In this document: piece by piece, positions 24,905 to 25,482 of the stretch
Numbering within the stretch: the stretch's first letter is position 1
Layout: each line of letters begins with the position of its first letter
DNA from: Chitinophagaceae bacterium
Lineage (GTDB): Bacteria > Bacteroidota > Bacteroidia > Chitinophagales > Chitinophagaceae
Assembly (NCBI GenBank): GCA_947447265.1
Contig: CANFKC010000002.1
Location: 124,001-188,000, forward strand
Direction: 5' to 3'
DNA length: 64,000 nt
Position numbers and translations under genes: made by a program
The notes under the pieces: generated by a model
The model's database searches: none
Told to the model about the DNA's origin: nothing
What the model saw: the letters and a program-made list of their open reading frames with translations, nothing else

Positions 24905-24979
24905 GGAAGCATAGCTCAGCTGGTTCAGAGCATCTGCCTTACAAGCAGAGGGTCCGCGGTTCGAACCCGTGTGCTTCCA
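24905..24979 (+). tRNA. tRNA-Val (anticodon TAC), copy 1
   Basis: Complete cloverleaf: acceptor stem GGAAGCA/TGCTTCC with discriminator A, D-arm GCTC...GAGC, anticodon stem TCTGC/GCAGA with loop CTTACAA (anticodon TAC), and T-arm CGCGG-TTCGAAC-CCGTG (one G-T pair). CCA is not fully encoded. A T run follows. Confidence 0.96.
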
Positions 24980-25014
24980 CTTTTTTTAAATTCATCCGAT
25001 AGAAATAAGTTATT

Positions 25015-25089
25015 GGAAGCATAGCTCAGCTGGTTCAGAGCATCTGCCTTACAAGCAGAGGGTCCGCGGTTCGAACCCGTGTGCTTCCA
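25015..25089 (+). tRNA. tRNA-Val (anticodon TAC), copy 2
   Basis: Identical in sequence to copy 1 and 35 bp downstream, so most likely co-transcribed from the same promoter. A strong terminator follows one base after it. Confidence 0.96.
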
Positions 25090-25090
25090 C

Positions 25091-25120
25091 AAAGGCTCTA
25101 CATATTGTAGAGCCTTTTCT
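25091..25120 (+). terminator. Terminator after tRNA-Val copy 2
   Basis: Perfect 12-bp stem AAAGGCTCTACA/TGTAGAGCCTTT with a 3-nt loop, then T residues. Confidence 0.9.
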
Positions 25121-25125
25121 ATTTT

Positions 25126-25404
25126 ATGCCGTTTTCGACCTACATATTGTATTCTGCAGTCTTATCAAAGTTTTATATTGGCCACACTGGCGATGAAGTG
25201 GATAGTCGCTTACAAAAACATCTATCTAACCATGATGGATTTACCGCAAAGGCGAAAGACTGGGTAATTGCATCGGTAGAAGTTCATGAAACCAAGGAGT
25301 CAGCTTACCGCCGAGAACGGGAGGTCAAGGGATGGAAGAGTAGTAAGAAGATTGAAAAACTAATAGCTGCGAGTGCAACAGCTGGTTCAGGGCATCCCGA
25401 CTGA
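25126..25404 (+). CDS. GIY-YIG domain nuclease running into a broken tRNA
   Basis: 92 residues, a single GIY-YIG domain: STYILYS (4-10), KFYIG (15-19), Arg28 in SRLQKHL and Glu65 in RREREVKGW, the last being the usual metal-binding catalytic Glu position. Short stand-alone members are common in Bacteroidota and their cellular role is unknown. Codons for the last residues (ATAGSGHPD) lie in the D-arm and anticodon-arm sequence of a partial tRNA-Val copy, and the TGA stop is the first three bases of the hairpin loop at 25402-25407. The gene starts only 9 bp after the terminator of the tRNA operon, so its promoter is not obvious; expression by read-through is possible. Confidence 0.85.
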
Positions 25405-25444
25405 TAAGTCGGGAGGGTCCGCGGTTCGAACCCGTGTGCTTCCA
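25379..25444 (+). pseudogene. Broken tRNA-Val copy fused to the GIY-YIG gene end
   Basis: Matches tRNA-Val in the D-loop (AGCTGGTTCAG) and, exactly, in its last 32 bases from the variable region through the T-arm to the 3' end. The 5' acceptor strand is missing, so no acceptor stem can form. The anticodon arm is replaced by TCCCGAC/GTCGGGA (25395-25401 with 25408-25414) around a 6-nt loop TGATAA. It cannot be a functional tRNA. Confidence 0.85.
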
Positions 25445-25450
25445 CACTAT

Positions 25451-25482
25451 AAGCAGTTACACCTTGTGTAGCTGCTTTTCTT
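25451..25482 (+). terminator. Terminator after the broken tRNA
   Basis: Stem AAGCAGTTACAC/GTGTAGCTGCTT with one G-T pair and a short loop, then TTTTCTTTTT. The layout repeats that of the functional tRNA plus terminator. Confidence 0.8.

Follow-up and report, generated by a model that had tools for sequence, protein, structure and literature searches.

Why does a nuclease gene stand in an array of tRNA genes and end inside a broken copy of its neighbour? The question is raised by a short locus of a Chitinophagaceae bacterium. In the window, by which we mean the whole stretch of 64,000 nucleotides that was analysed, two identical tRNA-Val genes precede a GIY-YIG endonuclease ORF that terminates within a damaged tRNA-Val copy (Table 1). 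This order, first proposed by a sequence-only reading, is borne out by ARAGORN, Pfam and alignment, and, as that reading also stated, a separate terminator-like hairpin comes after each tRNA-like 3' end. Exact copies of tRNA-Val(TAC) in the assembly are limited to the two genes of this array. The bases at about 25481-25500, past the last terminator-like hairpin, may be what decay has left of the beginning of another unit.

Table 1. Features of the tRNA-Val and nuclease locus in the window
Feature	Position	Strand	Basis and remarks
Intact tRNA-Val(TAC), first copy	24905-24980	+	ARAGORN; sequence same as second copy
Intact tRNA-Val(TAC), second copy, immediately upstream of the nuclease unit	25015-25090	+	ARAGORN
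Terminator-like hairpin in the interval between tRNA and ORF	25094-25120	+	Sequence reading; in genus g108 the counterpart at this position is element-linked
GIY-YIG endonuclease ORF, 92 aa	25126-25404	+	Pfam PF01541, E 3.4e-14; purifying selection in relatives
Damaged tRNA-Val copy, spanning tRNA positions 13-76, with the end of the ORF reaching into its D-arm part	25379-25445	+	85% match to tRNA-Val; segment map
Palindrome TCCCGACT-GATA-AGTCGGGA in place of the anticodon arm, includes stop codon 25402-25404	25395-25414	+	Fold; covarying hairpin in relatives
Terminator-like hairpin 3' of the damaged copy	25451-25485	+	Sequence reading

The 3' end of the damaged copy is the same as that of the functional tRNA, the last 33 nt being identical. 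The copy is damaged as first described, but it is not a mere 3' half: it looks like a near-complete copy whose 5' end was overwritten by the ORF, and in relatives (L027, L035 and L072) the damaged copy is kept from tRNA position 3. A hairpin does replace the anticodon arm, with a folded stem of 8 bp and a GATA loop instead of the 7-bp stem and TGATAA loop initially suggested. The stop codon does lie in the hairpin; the TGA straddles the last stem base and the loop and is not the first triplet of the loop. The fold indicates that the hairpin is stable even as single-stranded DNA. The layout of the window exceeds chance, as the hairpin pattern is rare (chance expectation in the window 0.2) and the whole layout is found again in about a hundred other loci.

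A family profile built from 33 relatives matched, at a threshold of E <= 1e-10, in 174 of 296 Bacteroidota genomes, a single genome holding as many as 18 copies. To the loci obtained from the searches, about 80 more were added from the surroundings of profile matches. Linkage to tRNA genes was counted for the 149 ORFs with a profile score of at least 50 and an adequate flank; 132 of them adjoin a same-strand tRNA, of at least ten isotypes overall, or a tandem unit, and since the selection of loci favoured high-scoring matches, such proportions apply to this family and not to GIY-YIG proteins at large. A same-strand tRNA lies within 200 nt upstream of 97 ORFs and just downstream of 8, and 27 stand in tandem with another unit. 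For the remaining 17, ARAGORN found neither tRNA nor tandem unit, and most of these have tRNA fragments or long direct repeats. The isotypes include Val, Ala, Asp, Asn, Arg, Gly, Met, Ser, Pro and Lys. The chance of a same-strand tRNA that close to a random gene is estimated at about 1/1000, assuming some 50 tRNA genes in 4 Mb. The home genome of the window holds three relatives, L002 (C5), L003 (C24) and L004 (C50): one stands at a tRNA-Ala, one by an apparent tRNA-Lys remnant, its ORF being followed by a large hairpin, and the third, which is only distantly related, has a tRNA-Leu fragment on one side and an intact tRNA-Leu on the other.

The proteins of the family are 80-92 aa long and consist of the catalytic domain alone, being too short for a separate DNA-binding domain. 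Residues Y6, Y17, G19, R28 and E64 are invariant across the family alignment. The dN/dS values of close ORF copies mostly fall between 0.07 and 0.34, and purifying selection therefore keeps the nuclease functional. The closest solved structure by sequence is the single-domain UPF0213 protein 1zg2 (E 7.8e-10, similar across the entire domain at profile positions 1-80), followed by Slx1; the predicted fold, of moderate confidence (mean pLDDT 78.6), agrees on this order. The window protein has no match among 50,697 phage records and none among plasmids, and a phage or plasmid vehicle was rejected on these grounds. On a nuclease tree the tRNA isotype changes 27 times, against about 80 times in shuffles, which never fell below 74; the tree is a quick one of 81 columns with many weakly supported forks. 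The small number of changes indicates that lineages keep one isotype, either through target specificity or through inheritance at the locus.

Across the relatives, a direct repeat surrounds 129 of 147 ORFs and usually consists of the local tRNA with adjacent sequence up to or near the ORF start. The proposed agreement between the 3' flank and the local tRNA holds for the family: in 83 of 93 loci the flank matches its own isotype better than the best other isotype. The hairpin takes the place of the anticodon arm in copies of tRNA-Val, -Ala, -Arg, -Lys and some -Met. It replaces the 3' side of that arm in tRNA-Asn and some tRNA-Met copies, and the 5' side of the T arm in tRNA-Asp and some tRNA-Gly copies. 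Some damaged copies have two hairpins; in L027, L035, L039, L062 and L065 a second, TCCCG-type hairpin occurs in or near the T arm, as if replacement had taken place repeatedly. Two generalizations of the sequence-only reading fail at the scale of the family. Of the 118 ORFs that have a hairpin, only 31 have a stop codon supplied or overlapped by it, and homology to the tRNA 3' half is not the rule, since tRNA-Ser and some tRNA-Arg and tRNA-Ala loci display a second layout, in which the intact tRNA is downstream and an upstream damaged copy keeps the tRNA 5' part, with hairpins inserted mostly in the D arm.

Tandem units repeat with a period of roughly 315-415 bp. In one genome (G451) two contigs each have a tRNA-Arg(TCT) locus with a near-identical unit (L109 and L110), one of the two with three ORFs, and in L109 the upstream tRNA-Pro/tRNA-Arg pair is duplicated as well. 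Another (G086) has two copies, L186 and L187, with 94% identical proteins. L186 adjoins tRNA-Lys; L187 has a tRNA 3' remnant alone upstream and is truncated downstream within the hairpin, and is either a displaced copy or a locus that no longer has its former tRNA. A group I intron with a GIY-YIG enzyme was rejected as an explanation of the layout, as the tRNA beside the ORF is uninterrupted and Rfam reported no intron families in 18 family loci other than that of the window.

The hairpin sequence is commonly TCCCGA-loop-TCGGGA. Hairpins were selected by their outer five pairs only, which yielded 89 distinct ones. The sixth pair, outside the selection, is Watson-Crick in 88 of the 89, against a mean of 54 and a maximum of 65 in shuffles, and the seventh in 58 of 62. 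Stem length varies, the loop has 3-5 nt in nearly all cases, and hardly any G-T pairs occur in the core. Base pairing itself is maintained in the hairpin. Simply inactivating a spare tRNA would not require this. The sequence of the hairpin is tied to nuclease clade weakly at most (16 changes against a shuffle mean of 21.6), with no clear signal within tRNA-Val. A dispersed palindromic repeat was rejected as the source of the hairpin, the pattern occurring 24 times per strand in the home genome and 14 times in the control, that is, near the control level. The window has a second CCCGA-n-TCGGG palindrome at 46118-46136, apart from the element; with the genome-wide count near the control, it is probably a chance occurrence.

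Most pattern matches in loci away from scored ORFs proved to be more marked tRNA copies. Copies without an ORF occur in L156, L160, L162, L163 and L169 (tRNA-Asn locus of genus g144) and in L223 (genus g108), some in tandem and some upstream of an intact tRNA. L223 has two near-identical marked copies, each with its own copy of the tRNA leader region. ARAGORN labels marked tRNA-Val copies as tRNA-Lys(TTT) or tRNA-Ile(TAT), and probably a marked tRNA-Lys copy as tRNA-Leu(TAA); the miscalled copies are L222 2252-2332, L223 2275-2355 and 2481-2561, L016 1722-1801 and L031 1376-1450. In L223 2275-2355 the T stem reads GAAG/CTTC, against GGGG/CCCC in the intact tRNA, and the acceptor stem looks broken.

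Empty sites, which the sequence-only reading expected in related strains, were encountered in related species. Neither of the two outcomes that the reading had named as refuting it, 3' flanks foreign to the local tRNA and a lack of empty sites, was obtained. At the tRNA-Asn locus of genus g144, the filled L149 differs from the empty L150 and L151 by an insert of some 320 bp, with a repeat of tRNA and terminator at its borders. Among 21 species this locus is seen in intact, frame-broken, ORF-less and empty states; several of the loci run into contig ends, so that not all could be classed. One terminator type is common to filled and empty sites there, which makes the terminator uninformative. 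The tRNA-Val site of g108 is mostly empty: of 30 loci, 4 have ORFs (one of them only fragments), and most have plain tRNA-Val genes. One locus has marked copies before an assembly gap, and one other a short ORF remnant further downstream. The terminator CTCCAAAGTCATTTGATTTTGGAG follows a tRNA-Val in all 5 of the 5 g108 loci with ORFs or marked copies. A variant of it occurs without an ORF in L229, and most other sites of g108 have a different hairpin, commonly CTCCTTAAGAAATTAAGGAG. In the filled arrays L222 and L224 the distal tRNA is followed by a native, CTCCTTAAG-type hairpin. This pattern, with the donor terminator on the left and the native one on the right, is what repair copying into a broken tRNA predicts. 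Units of g108 are 85.5-86% identical between G612 and either G217 or G550, and thus more alike than the flank, which is 72% identical between G612 and G217. For the locus of the window itself the search for a syntenic empty site was unsuccessful: within the genus, no tRNA adjoins the best homologues of the lipoprotein gene that lies downstream, and the upstream gene was not found in congeners. A candidate empty tRNA-Gly site in G492 was discarded because it holds a decayed element. In the occupied allele the damaged copy is altered, but the tRNA that stands beside it is intact and resembles the one at empty sites. Mobility of the unit would fit both the pattern of presence and absence and the element-linked terminator.

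We regard it as reasonably probable, judging from sequence comparison, that the unit is a minimal homing element, free-standing and located in bacterial chromosomes, with tRNA genes as its targets. It comprises a terminator hairpin, an ORF for a GIY-YIG protein of 80-92 aa and a hairpin-marked copy of the target tRNA. The nuclease would cut a tRNA gene of its preferred isotype, and repair of the break from an element-bearing chromosome would copy in the terminator, the ORF and the marked copy. The left end of the break would be extended along the donor tRNA, which rebuilds an intact tRNA, and the displaced copy at the other end would be left non-functional. Breakage and repair between sister chromosomes could produce tandem arrays, and later decay and loss of elements could leave empty sites and solitary marked copies. 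Since the base pairing of the hairpin is conserved, and not only the loss of the tRNA arm, we favour a role as a recognition or protection mark for the nuclease.

Several features speak against homing. Next to the element stands an intact tRNA that seems no less open to cutting than an empty site, so that the usual protection of the occupied allele appears to be missing. The searches for a phage or plasmid carrier yielded none. The protein is a bare domain without a separate DNA-binding part to provide target specificity, a purely protective mark would not need a conserved palindrome, and the isotype-specific clades could be caused by inheritance at one locus instead. A variant of homing would make the marked copy the targeting part: its transcript, or the extruded DNA hairpin, would bind the nuclease, and the tRNA-identical sequence would guide it to genes of the same isotype. 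We consider this variant very unlikely. If true, it would amount to guided homing by a protein of about 80 residues, and would explain both the match between copy and local tRNA and the compensatory changes in the hairpin.

Compensatory changes that maintain the hairpin also speak for a system acting at the RNA level, in which the transcript of the marked copy, as a decoy, an antitoxin-like RNA or a guide, would bind the small nuclease through the hairpin, and the pair would persist in the manner of type III toxin-antitoxin systems. Marked copies do sit within tRNA transcription units, and they occur in tandem without an ORF, some with their own copy of the upstream tRNA leader region. Such a system is nevertheless unlikely in our judgement: GIY-YIG proteins are known as DNA nucleases, the hairpin may occupy the anticodon, T or D arm of a copy lying before or after the ORF, the scarcity of G-T pairs in the core is unlike most RNA stems, and in close relatives many of the ORFs and copies have decayed or are missing. 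The hairpin might alternatively be the substrate of the nuclease and not its shield, if a Slx1-like enzyme recognized the extruded hairpin, or single-stranded hairpins of tRNA arms, and so started the copying. Slx1 proteins, which cut branched DNA, are the nearest solved relatives after UPF0213 by sequence and predicted fold, and loops of 3-5 nt with variable stems suit an extruded hairpin better than a protein site of fixed spacing. The similarity to Slx1 is, however, at the level of the domain only, the model is of moderate confidence, and a nuclease that cut its own copy would promote ORF loss through recombination between the direct repeats; we hold this explanation to be improbable.

Purifying selection on the ORF would equally suit a function for the host. 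The nuclease could be a domesticated gene that came to lie in tRNA clusters by chance, the damaged copies being decaying duplicates of tandem tRNA genes, which are frequent in these genomes. The association with at least ten isotypes, the lack of the element at the same locus in many close relatives, the single palindrome common to different arms and isotypes, and a terminator that tracks the ORF and not the site all weigh against a host-owned gene, and make it highly improbable.

The proposed homing element can be set beside several known systems. Integrative elements with tyrosine recombinases insert into tRNA genes and leave an intact tRNA on one side and a displaced fragment on the other. 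The units described here contain a GIY-YIG ORF only and no recombinase, have a palindrome in the displaced copy, and form tandem arrays. Type III toxin-antitoxin systems such as ToxIN combine a repeated RNA, a terminator and a small nuclease gene. The likeness lies in layout only, that of RNA-like repeats and a terminator followed by a nuclease gene; the GIY-YIG fold is that of DNA nucleases, what is repeated is the local tRNA, and the turnover of presence and absence is strong. Proteins of UPF0213/COG2827 (PDB 1zg2, 1ywl) share the size and the single domain and give the best sequence and structure matches; we know of no linkage of these proteins to tRNA genes. The phage protein SegB is larger and contains more than a catalytic domain. 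It is a free-standing GIY-YIG homing endonuclease of phages T4 and T6 (PMC2988022); its cuts fall inside tRNA genes of the phage and drive their tandem amplification, and how it spares its own genome is an open question according to its authors (PMC13096335). The family resembles it in a GIY-YIG gene next to tRNA genes of many isotypes and in tandem amplification of the segment of tRNA and nuclease. SegB is encoded by phages, whereas the present proteins are chromosomal in bacteria, are restricted to a domain of 80-92 aa with no room for a further one, and come with the local tRNA as a direct repeat, the damaged copy of which contains a covarying palindrome; the family is set apart by this description and not by sequence comparison. 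The best reading is that it works like a SegB-type homing nuclease and would yet be separate, as domain-only, chromosomal proteins associated with a hairpin-marked tRNA copy.

The pattern is apparently widespread and undescribed: we found no description of this bacterial tRNA-linked layout in the open-access full-text literature, a body that leaves out most subscription papers and preprints. The units are easily overlooked because a unit is no longer than about 350 bp and some marked copies pass as ordinary tRNAs in tRNA finders. For annotation this means that the copies give rise to some tRNA-Lys, tRNA-Ile and tRNA-Leu calls and to the C-terminal tails of certain small GIY-YIG proteins; automatic tRNA annotation in Bacteroidota may include many such false genes. 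If the homing interpretation is true, many Bacteroidota genomes would harbour small, selfish nuclease units, often several of them, at tRNA genes that are essential. They would provide a natural system in which to study how a domain-only GIY-YIG enzyme finds its target, what role the conserved pseudo-tRNA hairpin plays, and how an element attacks an essential gene yet stays harmless.
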